Shown: positions 3 to 17,181 of the stretch, piece by piece
Position numbering within the stretch: position 1 is the first letter of the stretch
Layout: each line of letters opens with the position of its first letter
Program-made: the position numbers and the translations under genes
Source: a virus
DNA: 31,141 nt
Virus record (IMG/VR): IMGVR_UViG_3300025840_000156
Location: 1-31,141 of that record
Strand: one strand, 5' to 3'
Notes under the pieces: model-generated
The model's database searches: none
Seen by the model: only the letters and a program-made list of their open reading frames with translations
Told to the model about the DNA's origin: nothing

Positions 3-3000
3 TTAAAAGAATACGGTATGAAACCGGGTACTTCTACACCTGTAGGAAATCAACAAACAGGTTCTATAGTAAATAAAACATCATCATCACCTACCATACA
101 AGGTAACAAAGCAAAACCAAAACCTATTACGGTTAACAAAGTAGAAAAAGATAAATTCATTTCAGACCCACAAGGAAAACAATTAGGTAAAATAGTATCT
201 CCTGTAGGCGACAAACCAGTACCAGATGCTGTAGTGGTGCAGGACGAAAAAGGTGAATACAGTGTAGTGCAAGGTGATGAAAAAGTTATTGTTGATACTG
301 AAATGGAAGAAGGCAAATTAAAAAAATTAGCCAAAAAGAAAGGTAAAAAACTTCAAATTAAAAAAATAGGAAGTAAACTTAAAAAATTAGCAAGAAAACG
401 ATTAAAAGAAGCAGATCCAAAACTTTTTGAAATAAATTTTAATAGAAAAGAAATTGCATCAGAAGCCTTAGACATGCCAGTAAAGTGTGGTTTTGAAGCA
501 GAAACATTTTTTTATGCTGTAGAAAGTTCAAGTTCTTCTAAAGTTGAAGATATGAGCATCAGTGACATTGAATACGAATATGGTGACTTACCAGACCAAG
601 TATACGAAGACTTTGAATCTTGGTTATATGATAAAGGGCAAGACGAATACTTGTCCGACTTAGTAAGTGACAAAGTCCAAGAAGTCAAAGAAGATGAAGA
701 ATGGTTAGACGACTTTATAGACAGTTATGATGGCCCAAGTTCAGAAGCAATAGAACAGTACAAAAAAGATTTTGAAGAAAACGATCCAAAAGAATACGAA
801 AACCGTGAGGAAGATGGTTGGGAATACATGAACTGGGTCAGAGAATATGTAGAAGAAGAATACCAAGACGAATATTTGGCTTGGCTTGAGGATGCAGTCA
901 GAGAAGAATACGGCTTTGATGATGACGCCAAAGAAGCCGCAAGAAATGACTACAGTATGGAAGACTGGATATATGACACATACAGTTATATGAGCAGTTT
1001 CCTTGATGATTATGGATATGATTATAGTAGTGGTAGTGGCGATGTTGAAGGTGTTGCAGATGAATTACACAACTGGATAAAGGATAACAGTGAATTTGAT
1101 AGTTATCCGGAATCAGGAGATTACGATGATACTTACACTACAACTAGTTGGGCAGTAGAAAAAGACAGCAGTATTGACCCTGATGAAGGTACAGGAGCAG
1201 AACTTATATCACCTGTATTTGACAGTCCAAGAAAAATGCTTGAAGAAATGAGAAGTTTATTTCAATGGAGTGAAGATAACTTTGGCACTAATAATACCAC
1301 AGGTTTACATGTTACAATGAGTTGGCAAGGCGAGACCGAAAGGCTAGGTATGGAGAAGGCAGAACCAAACAAATTAAAAATGGCATTGTTATTGGGTGAC
1401 GAATACTTATTAGCACAATGGGGAAGACTTAGAAACAGTTATACAAAAAGCCAATATCAAAATTTATTAAGACATGCAGAAGATATGAAACGTGGTAATA
1501 AAGACAGTTTATTAATGTTACAAAATGAATTAAAAAAAGGCATTAGCAGAGAAAAGTTTTCAAGTATTAATTTTAAAAACCAAAAAGATAATGATAGTGA
1601 AAATGAATTAATAGAATTTAGAATAATGGGCGGTGCTGATTACCAGACAATGTATAAAAAAGTTGTTAAAACAGTTGTAAGATATGCAACCATTATGAAG
1701 GCAGGTTATGATAAAGATGCCTTCAGAAAAGATTATATAAATGCTTTGTTTAGGTTAATCCGCAAGAGCCAAGAGATAGATCCTGAAAAATTAAAAGACC
1801 TAGAAGTTCATAATCATCCTGTGATAGATTCTGCAAAAGAAATAGTTGGTAAAAAAGATTATTTTGATGTTATAAGATTTTTAAACAATTCTGTTAATTA
1901 CTTTAACGAATATGAAGAATTAATCGATTCAGAAGCAGATAAAAAATGGAAACAGAGTGTCAAAGATTATGAGAAAGGCACAGGCAGTAAAATGGATGTT
2001 GTTGAAGTTGAAGAGGGAGAGCCAATCAGAGGATATATTCAACCAGAAGCAATAGCACCCAGCAAAAGAGCACCAGCAGTATTAAAAAAATCTCAGGAAA
2101 TGTTTGGTAGGGCAGTAACACTTCTTGCAAGAGATATTGCTGACGGTAAGGCCAGAGGAATGCCTAATGCAAAAAGTATAAGAATATTCAGAGAATATGC
2201 TAACAAAATAAAATTAAACAGTAAAACTTTAGAAAAAATTGCCATCCAAAGTATGGACGACTTGAACTTTAATGGTACTGACAAAGAGAATATAGTAAGA
2301 TTAGAAAAAGGTGTACAAAGTTTATTTAGACAAGACATTATAAATAAACCAACCTTCCTAACGCCACAAGAAGTAGATGCCATACTTAAAAAGTCCTGGC
2401 AGTTTGCAATGTCTGATGATAAAAAAGATAATATTAAATTAAATAAATTTACAGAATTATTAGTAAAAGTATCTCCCTACAAAGATACAGATCAAGTACA
2501 AGATGATTTAAGACAAGTATTTAAATCAAGGCAGGAAAACGAATTTGCTAGATATATGAAAAGTGGAACATACGGAAGTAGTGGTTTATTGAAGGCAGGA
2601 AAAATTACAACTCCTGGTGCTGTTAAAGAATTACTATCCTTCCTGGAACCATATAGTGGGTATGAACATCCTACAAGTCCAGATCATCATATCAATATAA
2701 GAAGTGATGACAACTATGAAAATGTCGCACAGATGAGAATGATACAGCGAATGAGAGATCGTATGGATCATTTGCAAGATTTACAAACTGAGGACAAAGA
2801 AAAATATCAAAGCATAGTAAAGCAATTAGGATCAATTGGACAAGACTTTATAACTGCATTGAAGCCGGTAGACTTTGAAAAAGAACTTGGATTAAAAGAC
2901 AATGATGAAGATGGTAGAAATTTCCTAGGATTATCACACATGGGCGGCAGACACAGTGACCGACTCAATAAATGGAACAACACCTTAGATTCCATAGTAA

Positions 3001-6000
3001 AGATGTCTGAACCTGATCAGGACACGTGGAATTTTACAAAATCATACGATGACATAGTCTTTAGCCAGATTAATTTACCTGAATATTATAAAGCAAAAAA
3101 TCAAGATCCTGGTAATTATGAATCGTCAGAAATAAAAGCATTACTCAAGGAAAGATTTGCGGCGATTAAAAAATTCTTAACAGGATTTGATAAAATTTTC
3201 CAAAAGGAAGGTTTCCTAGATTTAAAATCCGAAATTAAAAATAAAAATCAACTGGACAAACGCAACAAAGATTTTGAAAAGAATATCAGAGGCTCTGAAA
3301 AAACTAAATTTAACATACCAGCACACAGTTGGGTATATATAGATAAAGAATTTTTAGATACTATCACAGATGAAGACTACAGTGACAGAGAGGCATACCT
3401 AGAAAATCATTTAGAACATTTTAATGAAGAACTAAACACAGGCAAGGTTTATGTAATTGCCGCAAGTCATTTTGGTGATGCCGAAGATGCCACAAACGGT
3501 TTAGAACTTATTGATACATTTGAAAAAAATAAAAACTATTATCATTCTTGGAGAAGAACTGGTTATAACAAAGTACTCAGCAAATTTAAACAAACGTATG
3601 GAATATCCTGGAGAGAATTAACTGGTGAAAGAGTAGCAGATAAAACATTAATACAGGGTGACGGTGATGTATATCAAAAATTAAAAGAAATTGGCATTGC
3701 AGTCACACACAAAGGCGACAGTAGAAAAGGTATGGACGGTGTACAAGATTTAGTTCCAGATAATGAAACAGAAAATCCAAGAAGTGGCGAACCACTTAAC
3801 AGAAGTAGCAGTATGAGTTGGGAAAGCATCAATGATGATGCTGAAGAAAAACGTTTTAACGCATTTGATTGGAGTGTATATCCTGAACAAATGAAAGGGT
3901 TAGTTGCCAAAGAAATGAAAGACAAAATAAGTAGTTTTGGCAGTTTCCAAGTAGCATTAGATAACATACTTAAAAGAGTATTAGACGGTGATACAGGTAT
4001 TGAAATAGGCCCTAACAAAAATACCATAATAAAAGCGGCTGGTGTAGAAGGCTACACAAAAGAAAATTCATTAAAAATAGGTTTTGAAACTGATTGGATA
4101 AATCTAGCAGATCATTTAGGTATAGAACTTGGTGTTAATAACCAAGGTGCAGAACTGTTAAAGAAAACATATAACATGTATGATGAAAACACCCAAGGTA
4201 ACTTTGCCGCAGATGGTGTCGGTATAGAAAGGTGGTTAGATGCTGTACAAAAATCCAAAGAATATATACAAAAAAATTATACTGTAAGTGGTGGAAATTA
4301 TTTTAGAGACAATGATTATGTTGGTGGCAGATTAGGCGGACCTGATAGTGCAGAAAAAACAATATCAACCCCACCAGAAAAAGAATTTAATTCAGATTAC
4401 GATTTAGCAAGAAACCGTTGGCCTAAGTTTGATGAAATGATGCGAAATGGTATGCAGAATTATTTGGCAAGAGGGCATGTAAATGACCTAGTAGGATTTT
4501 TAAATAATGCAAGTAATGACAGACGTTTTCAAAATGCAGTATTAGATACACTTGCAAATACACCAGATAGTGGTATGGGTGCTTTCGATGACTTTCAATC
4601 TGTATTAGCATCAGCAAGGATGAATATGTCAAGACAAGGACAACAAGAAAGCATGATAAATAGTAATATGTCCAGTATATTTGAAAAATTTGAAACTCTA
4701 TCTTTAGAAAAACAATTAGAAGTTTTATCTAAGATTGATACTAAAAAGATAGATGAGGCATATAAAAAAATAAAAACAGTTAGAGCCTCTGATCCTAAAC
4801 CTAAACTAAGTAAACCTACAACTGGTAGAGAACAACCTCATCCTTATACTGGCATGTTAGTTGGCAGTAAGAACAACAACGTAGGAGAAAGTGTACCTGA
4901 TAATACAAAGATAAGAATGTTAAATCATTTACTATCAGATAAAATGCCTGCAAATGATATTAAAAAACAAATGGATGCCTTTTTTGCTTTACCTGACCCT
5001 AAAATGATTAAAGCCTTTAGAGACAGACGTGCTACGGGCGGAGACGATGCATGTTTAAGACCTATATTAAGAAGTTTTATAAAAAGACAAATGGCTGATA
5101 CACAGCAAAAGTTTATTAATTTAAATGAATCTAAACTTAACGAATTGAAACCAACATCCGGATATACTAATACTCCGGAGCCTGACGATAATAAATTTAT
5201 AATTATAGATAAACAGGGTAAAGAAGTAAAAATAGGTTCTAATATAGGTAATGCAAAAATTATAGGCATAGTACCTCCAAGCAGTAATAATCCTGCCGTA
5301 ATAATAACAACAAAAGGAAACCTACCAGTCCCTAATAAATTTGGACTAACAATAGTGCATAGGTCATATAAACAACAAGAACTACCTTTACCTAAGCCAG
5401 AACCTACCCAATTGGAATTACCTGGTATGAATATAAAGCAGGAAGAATCCTTAAAAGAATATGAAGATCTAGAAGCAGAAAAAGAAAAGATACAAGATAT
5501 AGTAAGTAAATTAGATATAGAGGACGAAAAAGACAGAGAACTCATAGATCAAATCTGGAGAATACTTAACGCAGATCATATACAATCTGTAATTGGTAAA
5601 CTAGTTGTTAAGCCTATTGCTGATGAAACAGCAATGAATAAAGAAGCGGCAACTAAGGTATTAACACAGGTAATATACCAAATAGAAAGCAGTTACGATA
5701 AAATTAAAGAGTTTTTAGATGACTTAGAAAAAACAGGCTCTGCTTATGATGTTGATGCATTAAAGCAACCCATAAATAGTTTATCCAATATATTTAAATC
5801 CGATGTAGGATACACAGTATTCAAAACACTATTACCTTATGGAGTAGGTTCAAACAAAAAAGGACCTGGAGAATTTGCTTTAGCAATGTTAAGTGATAGG
5901 GTACAATTAAGTGACACTACAGGAGATGTTGTTATAGACGGAGAACTAGTTGAAGTTAAAGCAAGTAAAAGTGAAACTAGCTCAGGCGGCGGTAGACTAG

Positions 6001-6503
6001 GAATGGGAGGCATGCCGCAACTAAAAGCAAGAGATATTTTGTTAAGATATAGAGATACTATACCCACAGTTGCTTCTCATTTAGAGGATGAAGGAAATAA
6101 AACATTAGGTATAAGTAAATTTGTATCACACTTAAATCAAGATCTTCCTGTAGGAGATAAAAGAAGATATGAAATCACAAAGGAATTCTATAAAGATCTT
6201 TTTATACCAGCATCAGTGGAAAAAATTGCAAAAGCATTTCAAAATTCAGACAGTGATTTAGAAATTGCATTGCAATATGCAGGAGCCAACTATGTTGACT
6301 ATTTAACAAAAGGAAAATTTGAAGCATTATTGGCCATAGATATGTATACAGGTAAAACAGCATATCTATCAAACGAAGAAGAGTTTATGGATTTCCAAAA
6401 GGGACCACATTCTGGCGCAATGGGTATCAGTGTAGTACCTTCAAATTCTGGACCAACAGAATCTTTTGTACAGATGACATTTATAAAAAAGGGGAAAATA
6501 TGA
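3..6503 (+). CDS. Giant phage protein: amidoligase-like N-terminal region and PD-(D/E)XK-like C-terminal region (5' partial)
   Basis: The reading frame is open back to the window edge, so the start is probably outside; the first ATG inside is at 18 and has no clear ribosome binding site. About 2160 residues are visible (numbered from that ATG). Residues 101-131 are a Lys/Arg-rich stretch. The segments CGFEAETFF (157-165), GAELISP (393-399), GLHVTMSW (429-436) and IEFRIMGG (532-539) follow the order of the amidoligase_2 fold (glutamine-synthetase-like ATP-dependent ligases: GxEiE, E.isPv, GlHVh, iEfR). A very acidic Asp/Glu/Tyr-rich insertion of about 200 residues separates the first two. Near the C-terminus, E1952, D1970 and E1979-V-K1981 fit a PD-(D/E)XK nuclease core. 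The roughly 1400 residues between are unrecognised. It overlaps the next gene by 4 nt (ATGA). The size suggests a virion or injected protein; both domain calls are motif-level only. Confidence 0.75.
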   Translation, partial: LKEYGMKPGTSTPVGNQQTGSIVNKTSSSPTIQGNKAKPKPITVNKVEKDKFISDPQGKQLGKIVSPVGDKPVPDAVVVQDEKGEYSVVQGDEKVIVDTEMEEGKLKKLAKKKGKKLQIKKIGSKLKKLARKRLKEADPKLFEINFNRKEIASEALDMPVKCGFEAETFFYAVESSSSSKVEDMSISDIEYEYGDLPDQVYEDFESWLYDKGQDEYLSDLVSDKVQEVKEDEEWLDDFIDSYDGPSSEAIEQYKKDFEENDPKEYENREEDGWEYMNWVREYVEEEYQDEYLAWLEDAVREEYGFDDDAKEAARNDYSMEDWIYDTYSYMSSFLDDYGYDYSSGSGDVEGVADELHNWIKDNSEFDSYPESGDYDDTYTTTSWAVEKDSSIDPDEGTGAELISPVFDSPRKMLEEMRSLFQWSEDNFGTNNTTGLHVTMSWQGETERLGMEKAEPNKLKMALLLGDEYLLAQWGRLRNSYTKSQYQNLLRHAEDMKRGNKDSLLMLQNELKKGISREKFSSINFKNQKDNDSENELIEFRIMGGADYQTMYKKVVKTVVRYATIMKAGYDKDAFRKDYINALFRLIRKSQEIDPEKLKDLEVHNHPVIDSAKEIVGKKDYFDVIRFLNNSVNYFNEYEELIDSEADKKWKQSVKDYEKGTGSKMDVVEVEEGEPIRGYIQPEAIAPSKRAPAVLKKSQEMFGRAVTLLARDIADGKARGMPNAKSIRIFREYANKIKLNSKTLEKIAIQSMDDLNFNGTDKENIVRLEKGVQSLFRQDIINKPTFLTPQEVDAILKKSWQFAMSDDKKDNIKLNKFTELLVKVSPYKDTDQVQDDLRQVFKSRQENEFARYMKSGTYGSSGLLKAGKITTPGAVKELLSFLEPYSGYEHPTSPDHHINIRSDDNYENVAQMRMIQRMRDRMDHLQDLQTEDKEKYQSIVKQLGSIGQDFITALKPVDFEKELGLKDNDEDGRNFLGLSHMGGRHSDRLNKWNNTLDSIVKMSEPDQDTWNFTKSYDDIVFSQINLPEYYKAKNQDPGNYESSEIKALLKERFAAIKKFLTGFDKIFQKEGFLDLKSEIKNKNQLDKRNKDFEKNIRGSEKTKFNIPAHSWVYIDKEFLDTITDEDYSDREAYLENHLEHFNEELNTGKVYVIAASHFGDAEDATNGLELIDTFEKNKNYYHSWRRTGYNKVLSKFKQTYGISWRELTGERVADKTLIQGDGDVYQKLKEIGIAVTHKGDSRKGMDGVQDLVPDNETENPRSGEPLNRSSSMSWESINDDAEEKRFNAFDWSVYPEQMKGLVAKEMKDKISSFGSFQVALDNILKRVLDGDTGIEIGPNKNTIIKAAGVEGYTKENSLKIGFETDWINLADHLGIELGVNNQGAELLKKTYNMYDENTQGNFAADGVGIERWLDAVQKSKEYIQKNYTVSGGNYFRDNDYVGGRLGGPDSAEKTISTPPEKEFNSDYDLARNRWPKFDEMMRNGMQNYLARGHVNDLVGFLNNASNDRRFQNAVLDTLANTPDSGMGAFDDFQSVLASARMNMSRQGQQESMINSNMSSIFEKFETLSLEKQLEVLSKIDTKKIDEAYKKIKTVRASDPKPKLSKPTTGREQPHPYTGMLVGSKNNNVGESVPDNTKIRMLNHLLSDKMPANDIKKQMDAFFALPDPKMIKAFRDRRATGGDDACLRPILRSFIKRQMADTQQKFINLNESKLNELKPTSGYTNTPEPDDNKFIIIDKQGKEVKIGSNIGNAKIIGIVPPSSNNPAVIITTKGNLPVPNKFGLTIVHRSYKQQELPLPKPEPTQLELPGMNIKQEESLKEYEDLEAEKEKIQDIVSKLDIEDEKDRELIDQIWRILNADHIQSVIGKLVVKPIADETAMNKEAATKVLTQVIYQIESSYDKIKEFLDDLEKTGSAYDVDALKQPINSLSNIFKSDVGYTVFKTLLPYGVGSNKKGPGEFALAMLSDRVQLSDTTGDVVIDGELVEVKASKSETSSGGGRLGMGGMPQLKARDILLRYRDTIPTVASHLEDEGNKTLGISKFVSHLNQDLPVGDKRRYEITKEFYKDLFIPASVEKIAKAFQNSDSDLEIALQYAGANYVDYLTKGKFEALLAIDMYTGKTAYLSNEEEFMDFQKGPHSGAMGISVVPSNSGPTESFVQMTFIKKGKI

Positions 6504-7336
6504 AAATAAATGATTTAAAAGAAAATTATACCCTCCCCGGTTTATCATATGACAAATATGGTATGCCTGACTATAACCCTTATTTAGAAATAATATCAAA
6601 GGCTTTTAAGGAAAAGTCTTTTGGAAAAGTACAAATACAAAGATTTTTAGAAGATAAATTAGGAATAAGAGCAAGACTTGCCAGAGAACTTATACAAAAA
6701 TGGGAAAAAGTAAATAAAGAAAAAATACCTATGAAACTAAATGCAGAAGCCGGAGGCGGTGGTGGCGGTGCCGGAGGCGGTGGTGCTGGTGGCGGTGGAG
6801 CCGCAGGTGGCACAGGCGGAGCAACTGGTGGAGCAACAGGTGGAACAAGTTCAGGTGGAGACGGAGGGTCTGCAGATAGTGGTAGCACCGGAGATAGTGA
6901 TACTACATCCTCCGATTCCACTCCTAGTGATGCACCTACTATGGATGCCCCTAGAGGTTATGCTTTTTTAGGTAGTATGATGCCTACAAAAAAGAAAAAG
7001 AAAAAGAAGAAAAAGAAATCTAAAATAAAATTTGGTGATGGTATCTACGAAAACGTAGAACAAATGGAAGATAAGTTATTTGATTTAAAATATGCTTTAC
7101 AATCAGCAAGAGCAGAAACTAAAAATATAAAATATGCAGATATGCATATGGATATAATTAGTAAAGTTTCTAATATTGCAGAGGAAAACGGCATTAACCT
7201 AGATCAATATAATATAAATCAAGTTTATAGAGCAAAAAATAATTTAGAAAGTGCTATCTATCAATTAGAAGAAGACTTTGAAGAAGCAATTAGAGAATTG
7301 CAAAACGCAATAGATATGTACGATGAGGATAAGTAA
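6500..7336 (+). CDS. Hypothetical phage protein with Gly-rich linker and poly-Lys tract
   Basis: A 278-aa protein not recognised as a known family. Residues 1-80 are a folded-looking, charged domain. They are followed by about 50 residues of almost pure Gly/Ala/Thr/Ser, then an acidic Ser/Asp/Thr stretch, then the segment GYAFLGSMMP followed by ten consecutive lysines, and finally a helical, coiled-coil-like C-terminal domain rich in Glu, Asn and Ala. The Gly tract is much more GC-rich than its surroundings. The start overlaps the upstream stop as ATGA, so translation is probably coupled. The 3' end overlaps the superoxide dismutase gene by 14 nt. Two domains joined by a flexible linker and a basic patch could suit a virion, DNA-binding or scaffold-type protein, but this is inference. 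Confidence 0.8.
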   Translation: MKINDLKENYTLPGLSYDKYGMPDYNPYLEIISKAFKEKSFGKVQIQRFLEDKLGIRARLARELIQKWEKVNKEKIPMKLNAEAGGGGGGAGGGGAGGGGAAGGTGGATGGATGGTSSGGDGGSADSGSTGDSDTTSSDSTPSDAPTMDAPRGYAFLGSMMPTKKKKKKKKKKSKIKFGDGIYENVEQMEDKLFDLKYALQSARAETKNIKYADMHMDIISKVSNIAEENGINLDQYNINQVYRAKNNLESAIYQLEEDFEEAIRELQNAIDMYDEDK

Positions 7337-8705
7337 AATTGTAGAGCAAGCCATGCCTTGCCCAAAAACAAAGTCTAGAGGTTGCCAATGTGATAGAATT
7401 AATACTATCAAAGAAGCAGAAGAAGTTATAAAAGCAATAGTACAACTAGAGCACACTATAGGTGATGTTCAAGGTGCTGTAAAGTTTAAACAAAAACCCG
7501 GCCAACCCACAATAATAAAAGGTATAGTAAAAGGTCTAACACCAGGCAAACATGGCTTTCACATACACGAGTTTGGTGATTTAAGTAAAGGCTGTGAATC
7601 AGCAGGTGCCCATTACAATCCAGACGGTGTAGAACATGGCAGTTTAGAGCAAGGGCATGTAGGTGACTTAGGAAATATCGTAGCAGATCAATCTGGAACT
7701 GCAAGATTTCAAATAAAGGCAGAAAGGGTAGAACTTTCAGACGTAGTAGGTAGAGCAATAGTTATCCACGCAAACGAAGATGATTTAGGCAAAGGTGGTG
7801 ACGAAGAAAGTTTAAAAACAGGTAATGCTGGTGACAGAGTAGGCTGTGGTGTTATAAGGTTGAGAGAAGTTGTAGAGGAAGATTATCAAAGAGGTGTAAG
7901 TGATAAACATTTTGATAGAAATCAATTACCACAGATAAGAAGAGATCATATTAAAAAATCTAAATTCAAACATAAAGAAGGCAAAATAAGTATAGATAAA
8001 ATCAAACCCGTTCAATCTCAACGTGTAAAAGGATTAAGTAAAAAAGCAGAAGACGTGTTTTTAAACAATGAGGATAGGCCATTTATTGTAGACAGAAAAG
8101 GATATTTAATAAATGGACATCATAGATATGATGCGGCTTATATGTTAGGTATAAAACGTGCCCCTGCAATAATGATAGATGCAGATATAGAAGATGTGAT
8201 GAAACATTTTTCTCATACAAGTAGTGATGTAGAAATAATGGACGAAAATTATTTTAAAAAATTACTACAAGAAAAAATGGATAATGTTATATATAAGAAC
8301 TTTGGACGTGATCAATCAATTGAAAAACAAATAAATCCAAAAGAGCCACAAGAAGCCTGGGACGCCTATACCGGAGATTATCTTCCATTTTATTTTAGCA
8401 ATGGTATGAAACTAAACTTAATGGACGAAGATTACGATCCTAATTATGATGTTTGGGTATTTACTGATTTGAATGGTAATGAAACAAAAGGCGAAAAAGC
8501 AAAAGATCTTTACAACTTGTTGCAAGATATGACGCAGATACCTATAGAAGAAGCAACAAGTTCTCCAGGCAGAGTAAAACGTGCAGGTGCCAGTTGCAAA
8601 GGTTCAGTCACAGACTTACGAGCTAAAGCAAAAAAATACAGCGGTGAAAAGGGCAAAATGTATCACTGGTGTGCCAACATGAAGTCTGGTAAGAAAAAAT
8701 CCTAA
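7323..8705 (+). CDS. Cu/Zn superoxide dismutase fused to a ParB-like domain
   Basis: A 460-aa protein. Residues 38-180 are a complete Cu/Zn superoxide dismutase (2 superoxide + 2 H+ to H2O2 + O2). Copper and zinc ligands align with the SOD1 family: H80 and H82 (GFHIHEFGD), H97, H105, H112, D115 and H149. The disulphide pair is C91/C175 and the active-site Arg is R172. There is no signal peptide, unlike most bacterial SodC. Residues about 220-290 match a ParB/sulfiredoxin-like fold with GHHRYDAA at 265-272. The last 48 residues (413-460) form a basic Cys-containing module (RVKRAGASC ... MYHWCANMK), which I recall at the C-termini of other marine T4-like phage proteins. It overlaps the upstream gene by 14 nt. 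An alternative start is M11. The SOD call is firm; the job of the fusion is unknown. It could protect incoming DNA or virions from oxidative damage. Confidence 0.9.
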   Translation: MRISKIVEQAMPCPKTKSRGCQCDRINTIKEAEEVIKAIVQLEHTIGDVQGAVKFKQKPGQPTIIKGIVKGLTPGKHGFHIHEFGDLSKGCESAGAHYNPDGVEHGSLEQGHVGDLGNIVADQSGTARFQIKAERVELSDVVGRAIVIHANEDDLGKGGDEESLKTGNAGDRVGCGVIRLREVVEEDYQRGVSDKHFDRNQLPQIRRDHIKKSKFKHKEGKISIDKIKPVQSQRVKGLSKKAEDVFLNNEDRPFIVDRKGYLINGHHRYDAAYMLGIKRAPAIMIDADIEDVMKHFSHTSSDVEIMDENYFKKLLQEKMDNVIYKNFGRDQSIEKQINPKEPQEAWDAYTGDYLPFYFSNGMKLNLMDEDYDPNYDVWVFTDLNGNETKGEKAKDLYNLLQDMTQIPIEEATSSPGRVKRAGASCKGSVTDLRAKAKKYSGEKGKMYHWCANMKSGKKKS

Positions 8706-8717: not shown

Positions 8718-9740
8718 ATGTCGGACGAAGAAAAAATTTATATAGATGACGCTTTAGACTATACAGGGCAATCTTGGGTAGACAAAGTATTATTACATCA
8801 AACAGGTAAATTAGAAAACAAAGAAGAACACCCTGATGATACTCTACAGAAAATATTTCAAACAATCACATTAAATCATCTACAAAATGTAGGTGCTGAT
8901 AAACCAGTAAAATTATCTCAATATTCTGATTATTCAAATCAATATAAATGGTATCCTTCTGATACTGAAGATCAATTTAAAAAACATTGGGACGACCCTG
9001 ATACTAGAGGTATACTTTATAAATATGGCTGGGCAGATAAAAACGGAAAACCAACACCTGTATATTATGAATTGAACGAGTTCGGATTTAGATGTAAAAA
9101 TTTTAGTGATAAAGATGGTATTTTATTTTTAGGTTGTAGTTTAACATTTGGTGTAGGAGTAAGACGAGAAGATACTTGGACACAATTAGTTGCAGATCAT
9201 TTTGAATTAGAGAATTGGAACTTAGGAATGCCAGGAAGAGGGTTAGATACTATTGCATTATATTGTAGATTATTTTTAAAAAATTTAATACCTAATATAA
9301 AAGCAATTTGTATTTATATGCCACCTCCAGGTAGAAAAAGTATTTTTATGGATACTAAATTAAAAGGACCAAGTGAAAAAAATACAGCACCGCTAGAACT
9401 CGCACATCTCAACGGTATGGAATGGAAAAATGATGTCTATTGGGATAAACCTTTACCTAGGCCTATACATAAAGATTTTTTAAGAAATATTGTATCCGAA
9501 AAAGATATATTTTTAAATTGGTTGTGGAAAAGAGAAAATACCTTTTATAACGAACTGTCATCAGTTGCATTAATAAAAACAATAGCAGACGAAAGAAAAA
9601 TACCTTTAGTAATTTTAAATAAATTTGATGATATTTTTCAAGACCATAAAGATTTAGGAAGAGATTTACTACACCCTGGAATTAATAATCATAAAGCACT
9701 TAGTGAAAAATTTATACTAAACTTAGATCTTGATAAATAA
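8718..9740 (+). CDS. SGNH/GDSL-type hydrolase (copy 1)
   Basis: A 340-aa protein with an SGNH-hydrolase core after a roughly 130-residue N-terminal extension. Block I is FLGCSLTFGVGV with nucleophile S141 (GCS in place of the usual GDS). Block II is WNLGMPGRG with G170. Block V is RDLLHPG with D316 and H319, the Asp-His of the catalytic triad. Such enzymes hydrolyse esters, often acetyl groups on sugars or lipids; the substrate here is unknown. No signal peptide or membrane helix is seen. It is paralogous to the gene at 9887: both share the block I context, the NLG block and the C-terminal LDK ending. It has its own late promoter 5 nt before the ATG and no ribosome binding site. It probably acts in late infection, on virion or host-surface glycans (inference). 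Confidence 0.8.
   Translation: MSDEEKIYIDDALDYTGQSWVDKVLLHQTGKLENKEEHPDDTLQKIFQTITLNHLQNVGADKPVKLSQYSDYSNQYKWYPSDTEDQFKKHWDDPDTRGILYKYGWADKNGKPTPVYYELNEFGFRCKNFSDKDGILFLGCSLTFGVGVRREDTWTQLVADHFELENWNLGMPGRGLDTIALYCRLFLKNLIPNIKAICIYMPPPGRKSIFMDTKLKGPSEKNTAPLELAHLNGMEWKNDVYWDKPLPRPIHKDFLRNIVSEKDIFLNWLWKRENTFYNELSSVALIKTIADERKIPLVILNKFDDIFQDHKDLGRDLLHPGINNHKALSEKFILNLDLDK
9732..9739 (+). promoter_or_regulatory. T4-type late promoter (GATAAATA), leaderless geometry
   Basis: The octamer lies inside the last codons (Asp-Lys-stop) of the SGNH hydrolase gene. It is followed by 5 nt (atagt) and the ATG at 9745, with no Shine-Dalgarno sequence. Confidence 0.6.
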
Positions 9741-9744
9741 TAGT

Positions 9745-9900
9745 ATGCTTATTAAAGATATTATTAATGAAACTACTGCAGGTGCTATAGCATCTGTGGC
9801 GGTACCTATGGGTAGTATGATTAAGCGGCCTAATCCTAGTGTTTTTTCTAAATCTAAATTAAAGAAAAAGAAAAAGAAAAAACAAAGTGAATCAGTATAA
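9745..9900 (+). CDS. Tiny Lys-rich protein, 51 aa
   Basis: A 51-residue ORF between the two SGNH genes. The N-terminal half reads MLIKDIINETTAGAIASVAV and the C-terminal half is basic with seven consecutive lysines. The combination of a Gly-Ser-Met segment and a poly-Lys run recalls the protein at 6500-7336 (GSMMP plus poly-Lys), and similar short proteins occur in marine myoviruses as far as I recall. It starts 5 nt after a late-promoter octamer. Its 3' end overlaps the GTG start of the next gene by 14 nt, which supports a real, translationally coupled gene. Function unknown; nucleic-acid or capsid binding would suit the charge. Confidence 0.6.
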   Translation: MLIKDIINETTAGAIASVAVPMGSMIKRPNPSVFSKSKLKKKKKKKQSESV

Positions 9901-10705
9901 ACCAAATTTAACATTAGAAAAACTATATAGTGCTATTTCAAACAGGCACAATGTATGGGAATCAATTATAAACTCTGGTTATACACATTATAAGTTTATA
10001 TCTCCTGATGATCAAGATACCTTTAAATATAATTTAGAAAAAAAATCAAAAATATTACTTGATAATAATTGGCTAGATTCTAATAATAATATAGTTGATA
10101 TAGATTATAGAATTAATAAACAAGGATTCAGATGTAATCACTTTAGCAATGAAGAAGGAATCTTATTTTTAGGATGTAGTTATACATTTGGAGTAGGGTT
10201 ACATGAACATCAAACATGGGCATACAAAGTTGCAGAAAAATATAATACAAATTGTTGGAACCTAGGTATTCCTGGACACGGAATAGATATTCATTCTTAT
10301 TTTGTAAATTGTCATTTAAAGGAAGAGTTGCCTAATGTCAAAGCAATATGCATATTACAGACTCCCCCGGACAGAATTAGTTTATTACAGGATTTGGGTG
10401 ACGAAATATGCTTACAGGATTATTTTACAATATTACAAGCAAATGAAGATAAGGCCCATACAATTATGTATAAAGATTTTACACAATCTTTAGAACTTAC
10501 ATATAAAATGAATTATTATAAAAATAAAACAAGTATAGAGAATTATTGTAAATTGCATAATATTCCTTTCGTTCATATAGATCAAAAATCTGCACTATCC
10601 GATTTTAATTTGAGATCATCATTAGCAAGAGATTGCCAACATCACGGTGAATCGGAAAACATTCATATAGCAAGTAAAGTGATAGAAAGACTTGATAAAT
10701 ACTAG
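9887..10705 (+). CDS. SGNH/GDSL-type hydrolase (copy 2)
   Basis: A 272-aa paralogue of the gene at 8718, with a shorter N-terminal region. Block I is FLGCSYTFGVGL with S98, block II is WNLGIPGHG, and block V is RDCQHHG with D249 and H252, so all visible triad positions are kept. The start is GTG at 9887, overlapping the 51-aa gene by 14 nt. No signal peptide is present. The two copies differ strongly outside the motifs, so this is an old duplication or two separate acquisitions, perhaps with different ester substrates. The last codons (Asp-Lys-Tyr-stop) also encode the late promoter of the next gene. Confidence 0.8.
   Translation: MNQYKPNLTLEKLYSAISNRHNVWESIINSGYTHYKFISPDDQDTFKYNLEKKSKILLDNNWLDSNNNIVDIDYRINKQGFRCNHFSNEEGILFLGCSYTFGVGLHEHQTWAYKVAEKYNTNCWNLGIPGHGIDIHSYFVNCHLKEELPNVKAICILQTPPDRISLLQDLGDEICLQDYFTILQANEDKAHTIMYKDFTQSLELTYKMNYYKNKTSIENYCKLHNIPFVHIDQKSALSDFNLRSSLARDCQHHGESENIHIASKVIERLDKY
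10694..10701 (+). promoter_or_regulatory. T4-type late promoter (GATAAATA), leaderless geometry
   Basis: GATAAATA is embedded in the 3' end of the SGNH copy 2 gene. It is followed by ctagt and the ATG at 10707, the same 5-nt spacing as at 8705, 9732 and 20896, and no ribosome binding site is seen. Confidence 0.6.
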
Positions 10706-11363: not shown

Positions 11364-12785
11364 ATGCAAATAAAAGATTTCAACTTACAAGGTGCAACAA
11401 AGATTCAAAAGATCAACTCTGTACTAAAAGAAGAATTTGGTATGAGCATTTCAACAGGTTTCCCTAAAAAAGAAAAATTGGAAGCCATTAAAGAAATGTC
11501 TGAAATGGCCATTATCAAATTAAAAGACACTACAAAACACTTTCAATTAGAACCTGAGTACGCAAAGTTCTTGGGTGTTAAAGACGTTATTGAAACAATG
11601 CTTGCCGAAGGACAATATGCAGAGTCACCTGCATACGAAGGAATGAAGCAGGAACTTTATGCAAGTGTTAGAAAACTCATGGATAGTGGTTGTACTAATG
11701 AAGAAACAGTAGCACAAACAATGAATGAGTTTAGAAAGAACCCTAAGTATTGTTATGATGATAACCACATCAAACCTCTAGTTATCAAGATGGTAAAAGA
11801 GTATATGGGTGAAGGTGAAGTCGGTACATTAGCAGGTGGTTATGCAGGTTATAAAGCAGGAACGGCCCTTGGTTCAAAAATAGGCGGTAGTATTGCTGGA
11901 ATACCAGGAGCGGCTATAGGCGGAGCACTTGGAGCCATAGGAGGCGGAATCATAGGTGACAAACTTACTGATTCTGTATTAAGAGGACTTTCAGAAGAAA
12001 TTGGTATACCAGTAGAAGATTTAGAAAGTTATGATGCAATAGAAGAAAAACTGGACTTATTTGCAGAAGTATCAGGTAAAAGCAGAGATTCAGTTATAGG
12101 CTTCCTAAACGGCCTAGAAGAAGATGCTTTACCACAAGGCATCCAAATGTTCGGTAGAAAAATTGCAGAGAAAAAACTAAACGACAGCATTCAATACATG
12201 TACAAACTACAAAAAGATGGTAAGAGTGTTGAGGAAATTGCAAAAGAACTTGATATGAAACCAGAAGAAGTTAAAAATGCAATGAGTAAAACGGCAGAAT
12301 CCGTAGAGGAAAACAAAATGAATATGTTTGATGACATTATAGCAGACTTGCTTTCAGAGGAAGTAAAAGTCGAAGAAGCAGAAGTTGTAATGGCTGTTAG
12401 AGCATTAGCAGATGACATACAAGACCAAATAGAAAGAATAGGTAGAATGGTTAATGAAGACATTCCAGCGATTGCAGACCAGATGAGTTCCGAAATGGGT
12501 GCTCAACAGGCGGCACAATTTAAAGACAGCATGGAAGGAGTTTTATCAGGACACTTAGAGGCAACTAAGGCAAGTAAAGATAGTATAGACTCTATTGTTG
12601 GCGGTCTTACAGGAGAGGGTAGTGTTGGATCATTAGGTGATCTAGCAGAACCATCAGTAGATGATATGCCAAGCGATTTAGCACCTGAAGAGCCAAGTAT
12701 AGATGATTTAGCAGTAGATGATAATATACCAGCGGCATCAGGCCCAGCAGAAGAGCCATTAGGTAGAGCACCTATAGAGTCCTAA
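11364..12785 (+). CDS. Putative virion/core protein with glycine zipper
   Basis: A 473-aa protein of unrecognised family. Residues 1-150 look helical. Residues 154-198 form a Gly/Ala-rich glycine zipper, with small residues every three to four positions (for example AAIGGALGAIGGGIIGD), the type of segment that packs or inserts into membranes. Residues 205-310 contain helical repeats, including a helix-turn-helix-like segment around VEEIAKELDMKPEEVKNAM. Residues 310-400 are helical and acidic, and the last 60 residues are a low-complexity Pro/Asp/Glu/Ser tail. It is the first gene behind a late promoter, and the next gene begins directly after its stop. The late timing and context suggest a virion or internal core protein. 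An injected, membrane-interacting protein is possible but is inference. Confidence 0.75.
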   Translation: MQIKDFNLQGATKIQKINSVLKEEFGMSISTGFPKKEKLEAIKEMSEMAIIKLKDTTKHFQLEPEYAKFLGVKDVIETMLAEGQYAESPAYEGMKQELYASVRKLMDSGCTNEETVAQTMNEFRKNPKYCYDDNHIKPLVIKMVKEYMGEGEVGTLAGGYAGYKAGTALGSKIGGSIAGIPGAAIGGALGAIGGGIIGDKLTDSVLRGLSEEIGIPVEDLESYDAIEEKLDLFAEVSGKSRDSVIGFLNGLEEDALPQGIQMFGRKIAEKKLNDSIQYMYKLQKDGKSVEEIAKELDMKPEEVKNAMSKTAESVEENKMNMFDDIIADLLSEEVKVEEAEVVMAVRALADDIQDQIERIGRMVNEDIPAIADQMSSEMGAQQAAQFKDSMEGVLSGHLEATKASKDSIDSIVGGLTGEGSVGSLGDLAEPSVDDMPSDLAPEEPSIDDLAVDDNIPAASGPAEEPLGRAPIES

Positions 12786-13112
12786 ATGCGATTACATGAA
12801 TTTATTAGTGAATCCTATGACGATGAATTAATTTCAGCAGTCAGTGATCTTATATCTATTGCAATAACAAATGGTATAAAAAAGATTTCCACTAAAAAAT
12901 TCTCAGAAGTTTTAGCAAAACAAGGATTTCCTGCAAGTGAAGAAGAGATTATACAAGCAGTTGATAAAAGCGGATTTGCTTCATCGGTAAATAAAGCAGA
13001 AATAATACCTAATACAGAATTAGGTTTGGAAAAAGACGAAGAAGAACCATCAGTTGATGTTGGTAGCATGGCAGGCAATCAAGCAATGAGTGATATAAAA
13101 TCGGAGTTATAA
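12786..13112 (+). CDS. Hypothetical late phage protein, 108 aa
   Basis: The ATG directly follows the stop of the upstream gene. The N-terminus MRLHEFISES is a type of opening I recall from small structural or scaffold-associated proteins of marine myoviruses. The rest is helical with an acidic tail (EKDEEEPSVDVG), similar in style to the tail of the preceding protein. The stop overlaps the next start as TAATG. It is probably co-translated with its neighbours in the late structural set; exact role unknown. Confidence 0.7.
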   Translation: MRLHEFISESYDDELISAVSDLISIAITNGIKKISTKKFSEVLAKQGFPASEEEIIQAVDKSGFASSVNKAEIIPNTELGLEKDEEEPSVDVGSMAGNQAMSDIKSEL

Positions 13113-13432
13113 TGGCAAACATTTTTACAAATGCAACTCAGGCAAGAAAAGATACTAGAAATAATGTTACTGTTCATGGTGAAGTGACCAGTTTAGAAAG
13201 TAAAGTACTTGCTAATATAGATGCTGGTGTTTTATATGCAAATATTTCTGCTAATACTACAATGACCACCAGTAATGCATATTACAATGCATTTAACGGA
13301 ATCACTACAGATCCTACAAAACTAGATCAAATAAATTATGTTAAAAAACACTTTGTGGACTTAGGCTATGGTGTAAGCATAACAACAAATACAGAATCCA
13401 ATAATACTATCGTTTGGAATATATCCTGGTAA
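13112..13432 (+). CDS. Conserved small marine-myovirus-type protein, 106 aa
   Basis: A 106-aa protein opening with MANIFTNATQARKDTRNN, a signature I recall from small conserved proteins in T4-like marine phages. It continues with a beta-rich, Thr/Asn-rich body ending in WNISW. The start overlaps the upstream stop by one base. There is no membrane helix. It is probably a structural or assembly protein by context; no enzymatic motif is visible. Confidence 0.75.
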   Translation: MANIFTNATQARKDTRNNVTVHGEVTSLESKVLANIDAGVLYANISANTTMTTSNAYYNAFNGITTDPTKLDQINYVKKHFVDLGYGVSITTNTESNNTIVWNISW

Positions 13433-13461
13433 ATATCTTTACTTAATACAGTAAAAGATAA

Positions 13462-14130
13462 ATGTTAAAAAACAAATACGAATACCCAAATCTAAAAAGA
13501 ATACAAACAAAACAAGGCAGACGATATGTAGGTGAGGATGAAAAACCTGTACCTAGTGTTACAACTATTCTTGGAGATACTGGTGACAAAACTGCTCTTA
13601 TAGCCTGGCGTAAACGTGTAGGTGAAGCAGAAGCAACTCGCATAAGCACAGAGTCAGCAGGACTTGGTACCAAAGTTCATAATGCATTAGAAAAATTTAT
13701 ACTACAGGAAGATTACGAAATTAAAGGCAATAATCATATCAGTATTATGGCTAAAAACATGGTTACCGAAATGATAGATAAAGGGTTATCTAAAGTAGAT
13801 GAATTATATGGTGTTGAAGTAGGACTTATTGCAGAAGGTTTATATGCCGGAACTGCAGATGGCATAGGAATGTGGCAAGGCGAAGAAGCAATTATAGATT
13901 TTAAAACTGCTAAAAAGATTAAAAAAAGAGAGTGGATTGAAGATTATTTTTTACAAGGTTGTGCTTATGCATTAGCACATAATGAAATGTTTGGTAGTAA
14001 TATACAAACAGTAGCAATACTTATGATAGATCGAGAAGGCAAATATGCTGACTTTGTTATAGAAGGTGAGGAATTCAACGAGTATTGTGATAAGTGGTCA
14101 TCTAGACTAGCAGACTATTATTCCAAGTAA
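13462..14130 (+). CDS. PD-(D/E)XK exonuclease (RecB/Cas4-like)
   Basis: A 222-aa nuclease of the PD-(D/E)XK superfamily. The order is GTKVHNALE (the conserved His of motif I), Glu in YGVEVGL, D133 in GTADGIG, D146 and K148 in IIDFKTAKK, and a Gln/Tyr motif in FLQGCAYA. These are the metal-binding and catalytic positions of RecB/Cas4-like and phage exonucleases. It is likely a DNA exonuclease in recombination, replication or host DNA degradation. No cysteine cluster of the Cas4 type is seen. It is unusual in sitting between late virion-type genes. No strong ribosome binding site or complete late octamer precedes it; GATAAAT runs directly into the ATG. Confidence 0.85.
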   Translation: MLKNKYEYPNLKRIQTKQGRRYVGEDEKPVPSVTTILGDTGDKTALIAWRKRVGEAEATRISTESAGLGTKVHNALEKFILQEDYEIKGNNHISIMAKNMVTEMIDKGLSKVDELYGVEVGLIAEGLYAGTADGIGMWQGEEAIIDFKTAKKIKKREWIEDYFLQGCAYALAHNEMFGSNIQTVAILMIDREGKYADFVIEGEEFNEYCDKWSSRLADYYSK

Positions 14131-14141
14131 TACCATAAGAT

Positions 14142-14149
14142 GATAAATA
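14142..14149 (+). promoter_or_regulatory. T4-type late promoter (GATAAATA)
   Basis: The 15-mer tgataaatactacta at 14141-14155 is repeated exactly at 27452-27466. The predicted leader is about 18 nt and contains TAGGAG before the ATG at 14173. Confidence 0.75.
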
Positions 14150-14172
14150 CTACTAGTTAGGAGACTTTTAGT

Positions 14173-16671
14173 ATGGCAACATCAAACAATAATGTAATTG
14201 TTTCAAGAATACAAAACAGGCGAGGTTTAAAACAGGACCTTCCGAATCCATTACGACCTGGAGAATTAGGATTAGCAACTGATAGTAAACAACTTTACAT
14301 TGGTGCTGATACTGATGTACAAGCAGGTGCATATAACAAAATATTGTCTTTAGAGAATACCACAGGTGCTGAGGATTCTATTAAAAGTATTGCTAATAAC
14401 CAAGTTATTTCTTTTACAGTACCACATATAAGATATCCTTCAGGCAGTTTTAGTGGTACAGAAAAACAAATTAGTTATACTCCTAGCACAAGTAAAACAT
14501 ATTCATTACCTAATTCAGGTAGTGATACTAGAACAACTTTTAAAGCATCGGTTACAGATGGTAATATTATAAATTTAGAAACTAATTTGGCCTTTACGGC
14601 AAACACAATCACAGTTGTAAAAAATGGAGAAGTTTTAAGCGGTTCAGATACTGCCACAGTTGCAAACTTAGTAAGTCATGATTACATATTTTCATCTAAT
14701 ACTGCTTTAGCAAATACACATACAGCAACTTTTAGAAATCTACTTACATCAACAGATGAAGTAGCAATTACATATTATGGTAATAGTGCGGTCATACAAG
14801 CATTAGATGGATTTAGTTCATCTAATACACAAATTAGTTATTATAGTGAAGAACTAAACTTTTACGATTCTTACTCTATACCAGATTATAGAAAGATAGA
14901 CGAAAAATTTATTAGAGTATCTCCTACTACAGGAGTTGGATACATTGGATTAGAATATAAACACATATCAATTGTTGCTGATAGTTCTGCTAACGTAACA
15001 GTTTCAGGTCTTGGTAATTTAAGAACCAGTAACACATCTGATATACAGAATAGTATTACATTTACGCCAACAGGCGCTTCTGATGTAGTAATAACATTAG
15101 ATAACAGTGGTGAAACTTTTAACGCAAGTAGTTATTATAATCATGTATTTTGCGAAAACTTAGCAAACAGTTGGGTAAATAATAAAACTATACCTTTAAC
15201 AGCAAGTAATTCAACAAGTATATCATTTACTTTACCTTCAGGAAATGCTTGGCAAACAGCAAGATCATGTACTGCCGCAGAATCATCAGGTAATACTACA
15301 ACTATTACTGGTAATGTTGATGGCCTTACTGCAAATGATTATGTTAAATTTATAGGTTCTAATGCAACACAATTTAATGATACAAATAAAATATATCAAG
15401 TACAAGGTGTTAGTACGGGTTCGTTTACAGTTACTGAAGACAATGTAAGTTCAGCAATTACAAGTGATTTAGATTATATAAATTATGGTTCTGATAATAG
15501 TGGAGCCAATGTACAGATTTTTTCACCTTTACATGGTGTACCAGTTGGAGCAGATTTTAAACTTGCAGGAAGCACATCAACTGGGCAGGTAGCAAATGGA
15601 AATGCTACACTTATAGGAACAGCAACAGATAATACATTCTTTATAGTGGCGGCAGGCGCAGGAACATCAAATGTTACAGGTACAGCAGATGTTGTATTTG
15701 GTACTGATACGTCAGGAAGTATTACCAATGTTAGAAGTACTGATTTAAGTTCTGCTACAACATTATCAGAAGCGGTGGCAATAGTAAACAATTTATCAGA
15801 TGCAGATGCATGGGAAAGTTTGCAACTTGATCCTAATAATAATAATAGAATATATTTTACAAGTAAACAATCTAAATCTTCAACACCTTTTAATTTTAGA
15901 CTACATAATGATAGTGCTGGTACATTAGATATATTACAATTAATAGATAGTGATTATGTATATGGTAGCAAATTATATAATAGAGACACCACAGTTAAAG
16001 CAAAATTGGAACAATGGTTAAATGCTAGATTGAACTCAACAGAAATAAATTTATTTGAATCTGTAGCAACAAATCAAATATACGCAAGTTCTGGAACAGG
16101 CGATATAGAATCTTTTCCAATAGATATAGATAACGAATTTTCAGAAATGACGTTTACAAGCAATGAAGAAGCAGAAAATTTTGCATATATTATTAACAAT
16201 ATGTATTTTGCTAAATCAGATGCTGATGTAAAAGGTTTGCTTACAACAAAATTAAATATAGAAATTTTAACTTCTTTAGGACAGTCAGCAGGACAGAAAA
16301 CAACTTCTTTTGATGTTACGAATACAGCAACAATTAGTAGTGGAAATGTAATTGCAAGTTCAGATTTACCTATTAGTACATCAAATTACGATTCTCATGT
16401 TTTGGAATATACAGTTAAGTATGATGGAACAACAGACGGAAACTATAGAAGAACAGGAAAAATATATCTTAGTACTTTTGAAAATAGTGTAACAGGGAAT
16501 TCAGATGTTGTGGTGCAGGATATTGCAAGTGATGTAAGCGACACTTTGTCAGGTAATGTTTCATTTGGTGCAACTTTTAATTCTGTAACTAATGAGATTA
16601 CTTTAACTGCTGAAAATACTACTAATAAAAATCTAGTTATGAATTGGATACAAAGGCGTTGGAGTTCCTAG
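14173..16671 (+). CDS. Fibre-like virion structural protein
   Basis: An 832-aa, Ser/Thr/Asn-rich, beta-rich protein. The first 50 residues (VIVSRIQNRRGLKQDLPNPL, then RPGELGLATDSKQLYIGAD) match the short N-terminal module common to phage tail fibres and tropism determinants, which anchors the fibre to the virion. The remainder lacks cysteine-rich or enzymatic motifs and looks like consecutive beta-domains with sequences such as VSTGSFTVTEDNVSS. It is the only gene in this window with a typical fibre build. It has its own late promoter and a good ribosome binding site. It is likely a tail fibre or other surface appendage contacting the host; which appendage is not determinable. Confidence 0.8.
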   Translation: MATSNNNVIVSRIQNRRGLKQDLPNPLRPGELGLATDSKQLYIGADTDVQAGAYNKILSLENTTGAEDSIKSIANNQVISFTVPHIRYPSGSFSGTEKQISYTPSTSKTYSLPNSGSDTRTTFKASVTDGNIINLETNLAFTANTITVVKNGEVLSGSDTATVANLVSHDYIFSSNTALANTHTATFRNLLTSTDEVAITYYGNSAVIQALDGFSSSNTQISYYSEELNFYDSYSIPDYRKIDEKFIRVSPTTGVGYIGLEYKHISIVADSSANVTVSGLGNLRTSNTSDIQNSITFTPTGASDVVITLDNSGETFNASSYYNHVFCENLANSWVNNKTIPLTASNSTSISFTLPSGNAWQTARSCTAAESSGNTTTITGNVDGLTANDYVKFIGSNATQFNDTNKIYQVQGVSTGSFTVTEDNVSSAITSDLDYINYGSDNSGANVQIFSPLHGVPVGADFKLAGSTSTGQVANGNATLIGTATDNTFFIVAAGAGTSNVTGTADVVFGTDTSGSITNVRSTDLSSATTLSEAVAIVNNLSDADAWESLQLDPNNNNRIYFTSKQSKSSTPFNFRLHNDSAGTLDILQLIDSDYVYGSKLYNRDTTVKAKLEQWLNARLNSTEINLFESVATNQIYASSGTGDIESFPIDIDNEFSEMTFTSNEEAENFAYIINNMYFAKSDADVKGLLTTKLNIEILTSLGQSAGQKTTSFDVTNTATISSGNVIASSDLPISTSNYDSHVLEYTVKYDGTTDGNYRRTGKIYLSTFENSVTGNSDVVVQDIASDVSDTLSGNVSFGATFNSVTNEITLTAENTTNKNLVMNWIQRRWSS

Positions 16672-16678
16672 TTGAATA

Positions 16679-17101
16679 ATGTTTTCTAAAAACACAACAG
16701 GTTCTGAACGATTAAGTATTTGGCGTAACATAAGAAAAAAAGACCATAAAAATATTTTAGAAGTATTAGAAGATTTCTCTAATATAGAACCCTTACCTAG
16801 ATACTTAGACTATTATACTCCTAGTAGTTGGCCGAGTGCTTTTGAAATAGTAAACGATGGGTATTTTTGCCAAAGCGGAATCACCCTAGTTTTATTGTCT
16901 ACATTAATTAATAAAGGATTCATAACTGAAGATAAAATACAATTACCTGTGATAAGTAATAACACTACAGGGACAACAGGGTTAGTTATATACGATAGAG
17001 ATTTTGTGTATAATTTTACACCTGGAGAAATAGTTTCTTGGGAACATGTGAAAAAGAACGCAACTGTATTCCAAATTCATAATCAGTTTGAATTAGCATA
17101 G
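16679..17101 (+). CDS. Hypothetical phage protein, 140 aa
   Basis: Not recognised. A 140-aa protein starting 8 nt after the fibre-like gene without a clear ribosome binding site, so possibly translated by re-initiation. The N-terminus is basic and helical, the centre has PSSWPSAFEIVNDGYFCQSG, and the C-terminal half is beta-rich (GLVIYDRDFVYNFTPGE). There is no signal peptide or membrane helix. By position it could be a fibre accessory or chaperone protein (inference). The nrd promoters begin right after its stop. Confidence 0.65.
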   Translation: MFSKNTTGSERLSIWRNIRKKDHKNILEVLEDFSNIEPLPRYLDYYTPSSWPSAFEIVNDGYFCQSGITLVLLSTLINKGFITEDKIQLPVISNNTTGTTGLVIYDRDFVYNFTPGEIVSWEHVKKNATVFQIHNQFELA

Positions 17102-17108
17102 AAACTAT

Positions 17109-17137: not shown

Positions 17138-17145
17138 GACATAGA

Positions 17146-17153: not shown

Positions 17154-17181
17154 TATCGTATAAAACATACTGAGGACACAC

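Follow-up and report, generated by a model that had tools for sequence, protein, structure and literature searches.

The window analysed here, a viral DNA stretch of 31,141 nucleotides, encodes a 460-residue protein in which an intact and probably active Cu/Zn superoxide dismutase (SOD) is fused to a ParB-like domain and a basic tail, and our favoured explanation, which we consider probable, is that this protein is a multidomain cargo which a jumbo phage of the T4 superfamily packs into its head, where the prohead protease would release the mature SOD (residues 32–185) from it; we infer packaging, cleavage, ejection and a protective role. The N-terminal peptide would carry the precursor into the prohead core, as capsid-targeting sequences do in T4, where such a targeting peptide on head proteins has a precedent (PMC9026906). 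A gp21-type (S77) prohead protease would then cut after glutamates at the module junctions (E31↓A, ~E185 and E410↓A, the arrow marking the candidate cut); these cuts would take off the Cys leader and leave a free eukaryote-type SOD of 154 residues, alongside which the ParB-like domain and the basic tail would be packaged as further cargo. The enzyme would travel in the head, where it could shield the packaged DNA from superoxide; more probably, it would enter the host with the genome and blunt the host's early oxidative response.

The fusion protein and its SOD domain

Positions 7323 to 8705 form a single frame with an ATG start and no internal stops, at the coordinates given in an earlier, sequence-only reading of this DNA; the fusion ORF has the following parts:

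7323 to 8705, plus strand: SOD/ParB-like/tail fusion ORF, 460 aa (ORF list, Pfam, full-length copies with 90% identity in L001 and L002)
7323 to 7415, plus strand: leader, residues 1–31; an MRISKIVE-type N-terminal peptide, then C13-P-K-T-K...C21-x-C23, ending in I29-K-E31↓A32 (candidate prohead-protease site)
7416 to 7877, plus strand: Cu/Zn SOD core, residues 32–185; predicted mature chain, 16.3 kDa (Sod_Cu 9e-45, SOD1 structure matches, invariant ligands)
7875 to 7877, plus strand: E185, candidate protease site after the SOD (REVVE↓E; junction motif counts against shuffles)
7899 to 8228, plus strand: ParB/sulfiredoxin-fold domain, residues 193–302, with the motif NGHHRYDAA (profile and model searches)
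8250 to 8552, plus strand: acidic, mostly disordered middle segment (310–410), ending in the candidate site PIEE410↓A; occurs as a module in other ORFs
8559 to 8699, plus strand: basic tail, residues 413–459, RVKRAGASCKGSVT..HWCANMKSGKKK; predicted helical hairpin, a module in 54 ORFs

The same domain order, which the earlier reading proposed to seek in other viral genomes, is present in L001 and L002 (90% identical over the full length), and neither of the outcomes that would have told against the fusion, a join of two genes or a lack of homologues, holds: full-length homologues with identical module order rule out an assembly or frameshift join. The proposed layout of SOD, ParB-like domain and basic Cys-containing tail stands, and to it have to be added two elements that had been left out, a conserved Cys leader (residues 13–23) and a long, mostly disordered stretch (308–422, mostly pLDDT <50 in AlphaFold) between the ParB-like domain and the tail. 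The full-length AlphaFold model is confident for the SOD (36–180) and the ParB-like domain (193–302), disordered over 1–21 and most of 308–422, and forms the tail as a small helical hairpin.

The Pfam profile Sod_Cu covers residues 49–178 (E=9e-45, all 133 profile positions), and the domain is of the eukaryotic SOD1 type, with 45–51% identity and a TM of ~0.9 to solved SOD1 structures. The sequence and fold features of such an enzyme are present, namely the seven ligands, the disulphide pair, the active-site Arg and the SOD fold. In an alignment of 72 viral SOD modules, some of which are as little as 31% identical in the core, the metal ligands H80, H82, H97, H105, H112, D115 and H149 are invariant (72/72) and the disulphide cysteines C91 and C175 as well as the active-site R172 are kept in 71; ligand conservation over such divergence argues for selection on enzyme activity. 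The alignment thus confirms the residues that the earlier reading had listed, and its expectation of an active enzyme is supported in so far as the sequence is that of an intact, probably active SOD. If the candidate sites are cut, the predicted product (residues 32–185, 154 aa, 16.3 kDa) has the size of an ordinary SOD1. As the same reading noted, no signal peptide is visible in the ORF; secretion-type leaders occur on most of the cellular homologues inspected and none on 7323–8705, which rules out a periplasmic SodC or a borrowed signal peptide.

The Cys leader and candidate prohead-protease sites

Upstream of the SOD core, 68 of the 72 viral SODs carry the motif C-P-[RK]-T-K-x3/4-C-x-C (here C13, C21 and C23). 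This leader is found on none of 76 cellular SodC homologues, in keeping with the initial impression of an unusual SodC architecture, and is present in four phage-like contigs binned into marine MAGs. These contigs (L125–L128) were assigned to Pelagibacter, Betaproteobacteria and Rickettsiales MAGs, a binning that is likely contamination and possibly a hint at hosts.

All 71 aligned sequences have [ILVM]29 and E31 at the end of the leader, followed mainly by A or S at P1', and E31 is the sole standout invariant residue of the leader (1–31) outside the Cys motif. Among 36 sequences non-redundant at 85% the pattern at E31 is unchanged while the flanking positions vary, and three relatives in which a poly-Lys segment replaces the Cys leader retain the site as GVYE↓A. 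The strict form of the motif also follows the SOD in 13 of 19 fusions (3.3 expected from shuffles) and precedes the tail in 12 of 13 (2.3 expected), counts to be read with the facts that acidic linkers can yield hxE by composition, for which the shuffles allow, and that the window's own site after the SOD, VVE↓E (VVEED), lies outside the strict motif. Which T4 glutamates are cut is established. In the sequences of the T4 record NC_000866 the sites of IPI (TITE↓A), IPIII (MKTYQEFIAE↓A) and gp23 (FLTE↓A) are of the same type as that at E31. Judged by its sequence, the leader end is a match to T4 prohead-protease sites and a candidate for cleavage, and the SOD leader as a whole has the sequence pattern of a T4-type capsid-targeting sequence, an N-terminal peptide ending in a prohead-protease-like site.

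The copper chaperone CCS combines a SOD-like domain with a C-terminal domain III bearing CxC and an N-terminal MxCxxC metal-binding domain. The viral protein is not such a chaperone, as its CxC is N-terminal and all SOD copper ligands are kept; the Cys leader recalls the CxC of CCS, but its position and context differ, which makes the resemblance a lead rather than membership. One further suggestion, tentative and on balance doubtful, is that the Cys leader is a metal-loading or redox-locking propeptide (for copper delivery or to hold the enzyme inactive in the host cytoplasm) which the prohead protease removes at head maturation, the head thus being loaded with mature, chaperone-independent SOD that is co-ejected with the DNA; such a capsid-borne antioxidant, activated by a protease, would be one exchangeable cargo of a general marine-phage system of modular proteins packaged in the head.

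The N-terminal peptide and the structural neighbourhood

The virus from which the window derives is a marine relative of the PA5oct-type jumbo myoviruses, and the window covers part of its genome. Positions 11364–20567 are collinear with PA5oct EST35_0237–0244, and the terminase of a syntenic contig (G018) is 57% identical to that of PA5oct-type jumbo phages. The SOD lies upstream of this collinear block. The label 'structural protein, ESI-MS/MS' is attached to much of EST35_0237–0244 and to the genes immediately preceding it. Three neighbours of the fusion ORF are of concern here:

9745 to 9900, plus strand: small protein MLIKDIINE↓TTAGAIASVA...KKKKKKK; a Thr-Ala-Gly variant comparable to the MKINEV..E↓QATAGATSAGN proteins
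11364 to 12785, plus strand: homologue of the PA5oct virion structural protein EST35_0237
12786 to 13112, plus strand: MRLHEFISE↓S protein; homologue (blastp 4e-6) of PA5oct EST35_0238, an MS-detected virion protein (VKIKDILVE↓S)

Between the SOD and the structural block the window also encodes two related proteins (8718–9740 and 9887–10705; ILFLGCSxTFGVG, SGNH-hydrolase-like, weak DUF6473 matches), and further downstream a short ferredoxin-like ORF (26821–27159, ...PDECIDCAL), similar to one in L088.

The MRISKIVE peptide of the SOD leader is similar to the capsid-targeting sequences of T4, and peptides of its kind also begin neighbouring genes that are unrelated. Of the SOD ORFs, 55% start in the form M[KR]xx[EDK][hydrophobic]; so do 69 of the 439 further ORFs that lie on the same strand within 5 kb, compared with 36 of 996 ORFs elsewhere and none of 165 nearby on the opposite strand, the loci being homologous and not independent, so that the p-value exaggerates the contrast. 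The SOD N-terminus is less regular than the E31 site, with several starts lacking an E near position 8 and some SODs lying inside longer ORFs. A simple N-terminal regex per genome gave weak enrichment, and tests based on distance and on PA5oct proteomics were used instead. Within PA5oct, M[KR]xx[ED][FILVM] starts occur on 11 annotated proteins, 7 of them MS-detected versus 93 of ~445 overall (Fisher p=0.002, or p=0.004 if one alternative start counts as a miss), a comparison that covers 11 proteins counted by eye from annotation tables, with the pattern narrowed from [EDK] to [ED] beforehand, and in which the MS-detected set includes non-structural enzymes (RNR, thymidylate synthase), so that detection does not equal presence in the head, and head and tail are not separated. 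Among these proteins are EST35_0150 (MKINDIITE↓G), whose gene lies between those of portal and protease, EST35_0238, and the pair EST35_0380/0381, far from the principal structural blocks.

In many of the loci retrieved, the SOD or tail gene is followed at a distance of a few kb by one for a small protein such as MKINEVIxRE↓QATAGATSAGNIA, and the small proteins of SOD loci (MKINE..E↓QATAGATSAGN) have sequence in common with the predicted major-capsid maturation site of G001 (KKYLSE↓QATAGATSAGNVATLN; in PA5oct the predicted site is RFLVE↓NASAGATQAGNIATIN). The G001 contig holds SOD, tail, S77 protease and gp23 together, and PA5oct, which is SOD-less, encodes its S77 protease between the portal and capsid genes; S77 protease and gp23 were undetected in the window and the closest contigs, all of which are fragments. 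Action in the virion, which the sequence-only reading had mentioned as one option, is thereby suggested by independent evidence in the form of the protease-like sites, the shared N-terminal peptide and the location of the gene next to MS-verified virion genes. The leader, the [ILV]xE↓ junctions and the MKIxEIxxE start would together give a sequence rule predicting head cargo among unannotated marine T4-superfamily and jumbo phage proteins, and this rule agreed with the deposited PA5oct MS calls.

It is this evidence that bears on an explanation which we regard as unlikely, though not negligible, according to which the protein is an AMG-like SOD that modifies the host and is produced in its cytoplasm during infection, with the fusion and tail serving to scaffold or localise it, no packaging or cutting, and hxE being a linker habit. 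The SOD is catalytically complete and is often a stand-alone ORF of ~182 aa, RNR and other metabolic genes lie nearby, and other phage SODs (Gifsy-2, Fels-1, Acinetobacter phage MD-2021a) are recorded either as ordinary enzymes or as proteins without a name, all of which would suit such an enzyme; however, the invariance of E31, the retention of the site after the leader swap, the N-terminal peptide common with proteins bearing an MCP-like cleavage sequence, and the placement beside MS-verified virion genes would be left unexplained.

The ParB-like domain, module exchange and known systems

The call of a ParB-like domain in the sequence-only reading is borne out by several searches. The Pfam match to ParBc_2 (residues 231–311) is sub-threshold, PHROG ParB-like families match at 1e-6 to 3e-7, a PDB search with the family profile picks up pNOB8 ParB-N (3e-5) as well as free serine kinase (2e-3), and Foldseek with the AlphaFold model of the domain returns ParB-N, sulfiredoxin and Noc folds. 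All 25 domains carry the motif N80-G-H-H-R84 (domain numbering), and fold and G-x-x-R type motif (here NGHHR) together place the domain in the ParB/sulfiredoxin fold superfamily. A canonical ParB partition protein is ruled out, as the ORF has no central HTH or dimer domain (Pfam) and no ParA match was found among the window proteins scanned. Sulfiredoxin has its catalytic Cys within the motif F-G-G-C-H-R; His replaces it in all 25 domains (NGHHR), which rules out this assignment too. A second ParB-like domain with the motif DGFHR directly precedes the tail in some fusions (L073, L061, L003), and L078 has a GGNTR version of it. As far as family knowledge goes, the ParB-like domain may bind NTP or nick, roles discussed for such domains in polyvalent proteins (PMC5512222), and the tail is possibly DNA- or metal-binding.

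If the fusion were an intact polyvalent effector, its SOD, ParB-like NTPase or nuclease, and tail would act jointly on DNA after ejection, with the ParB-like domain holding the SOD on phage DNA. ParB-like domains are known in injected polyvalent proteins (PMC5512222), the ParB fold binds CTP, ATP or GTP in diverse fusions (PMC12704722), and the ParB-like module is often fused to SOD, yet we think this improbable: the modules are frequently on separate ORFs or permuted, candidate cleavage sites lie between them, and Pfam detects neither an HTH nor another domain that reads DNA in 7323–8705. The ideas that the protein guards phage DNA, or that its ParB-like domain couples the SOD to DNA or nucleotide binding, are not established; separate or permuted modules with protease-like sites between them make a fixed mechanical coupling of SOD and ParB unlikely, and co-packaging of independent cargoes fits better.

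In IMG/VR at least 595 stretches encode a relative of the protein, and the ORFs of 80 loci kept from these were annotated for modules by profiles. Among the loci kept, the SOD is fused to the ParB-like domain and/or the tail in ~20 viral contigs and in several orders, and 45 ORFs are leader-SODs without the other modules used here (stand-alone ORFs often being ~182 aa). The arrangements seen are LEADER-SOD-PARB-(MID)-TAIL, POLYK-LEADER-SOD-PARB, PARB-POLYK-SOD-TAIL and a 2394-aa ORF ending in SOD-PARB. SOD and tail are fused in 18 loci and on separate ORFs at most ~3.4 kb apart in 18, a biased count because the query held both modules, for which reason their co-occurrence is not used as proof of function. 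The basic tail, with its two Cys, recurs in 54 ORFs among the relatives listed, one tail-bearing ORF per genome or fragment examined, and the same tail module stands behind other enzymes, namely an FMN reductase (G001), an NT5C-type nucleotidase (G002) and a zeta-toxin-like kinase (L078). Together with the varied arrangements, this indicates that SOD is one cargo of an exchangeable set. That the shuffling is functionally neutral, at a recombination-prone structural locus where SOD is a selfish or passively kept passenger, is very improbable, for although the variety of architectures and the exchange of cargo at a single locus (FMN reductase, nucleotidase or kinase with the same tail) would suit it, the metal ligands of the SOD are kept in all 72 modules, even at 31% core identity, which it would not account for.

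Other modules of the locus are exchanged as well, among them one encoded directly upstream:

6500 to 7336, plus strand: upstream ORF, 278 aa, MKINDLKE start, Gly-rich with poly-Lys; overlaps the SOD ORF by 14 nt

The poly-Lys module of this ORF is joined directly to SOD in L006, L007, L010 and L015. Gly-rich proteins with a terminal run of ~9–12 Lys followed by KFGxGxYE are encoded in the window (6500–7336), L006, L052, L061 and L064, the poly-Lys module being shuffled among SOD/ParB-like fusions. A giant protein of ~2,100–2,400 residues lies upstream of the SOD in the window (3–6503, 2161 aa), L092 (2167 aa) and L099 (2170 aa) and is fused to SOD-ParB in L019; its cultured-phage match is confined to a 10% stretch (Atu_ph07), and amidoligase-like and PD-(D/E)xK-like stretches seen by eye in the 2161-aa protein had no Pfam match and are not claimed. 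Further short basic two-Cys C-terminal motifs near the SOD (CWKGYK..NCV, RHNC.NPGPKTKARYWSCRKW and INCSNPKGFSQKAHCQGRKK; L109:2639-3067, L114:9812-10300, L109:3975-4355, L114:12517-13335) look like a mini-module family parallel to the HWCANM tail. OAR motif matches on the tail (E ~0.003) were discarded as short, below cut-off and biologically unlikely.

A fused or leader-bearing SOD has no match in a collection of 50,697 phage records, where the best matches are SODs at ~36% and the ParB-SOD fusion was likewise not found, which suggests that cultured phages, as sampled to date, lack the system. The tail module was not found in cultured phages by tblastn with a 52-aa query, in which low-complexity masking may hide matches.

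The closest kinds to the fusion protein are the polyvalent proteins and the T4 internal proteins. Like the T4 internal head proteins (IPI, IPII, IPIII and Alt, with a CTS cut by gp21) it has a similar short N-terminal peptide, an [IL]-x-E↓A site, basic parts and a structural-gene context, with an S77 protease in related genomes; unlike them its cargo is a metalloenzyme, it has several modules with internal sites, and we infer its packaging and claim no sequence homology to the T4 proteins. Polyvalent proteins (Iyer et al. 2017, PMC5512222), a class predicted to enter the host with the DNA, are likewise multidomain phage proteins that mix unrelated activities and include a ParB/Srx-superfamily domain, and the fusion has at least two domains of disparate activity in one phage polypeptide; in contrast to that class, no metallopeptidase or ART domain was found in 7323–8705, and its ParB domain is not assigned to the DdrB type. 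Neither a superoxide dismutase nor a ParB-SOD fusion is mentioned in the main text of that survey or of the 2025 ParB-fold survey (PMC12704722).

The sodC morons of Gifsy-2 and Fels-1 are also phage-borne Cu/Zn SODs, but identity to them is ~32–37% over the matched part and the leader, ParB-like domain and tail are unmatched. The PA5oct/Wroclawvirus cluster EST35_0226–0245 shares the collinear block and homologous neighbours; it has no annotated SOD and, in a comparable place, the Lys-rich-tailed, MS-detected EST35_0235. Finally, the Cu/Zn SODs of large eukaryotic viruses (PBCV-1 A245R, Megavirus, entomopoxvirus) are encoded by large dsDNA viruses too, and that of PBCV-1 is late and packaged in the virion, PBCV-1-infected cells having less superoxide than cells infected by a virus without the gene (PMC7019647); the present protein differs in belonging to a bacteriophage and in its Cys leader, its fusion to a ParB-like domain and tail, and its candidate protease processing. 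If head packaging is true, marine phages would bring with them, ready-made, proteins that act on the superoxide arising from host stress or sunlight, and a bacteriophage particle would carry an antioxidant enzyme for delivery at the moment of infection, as the particle of the alga virus PBCV-1 carries one.
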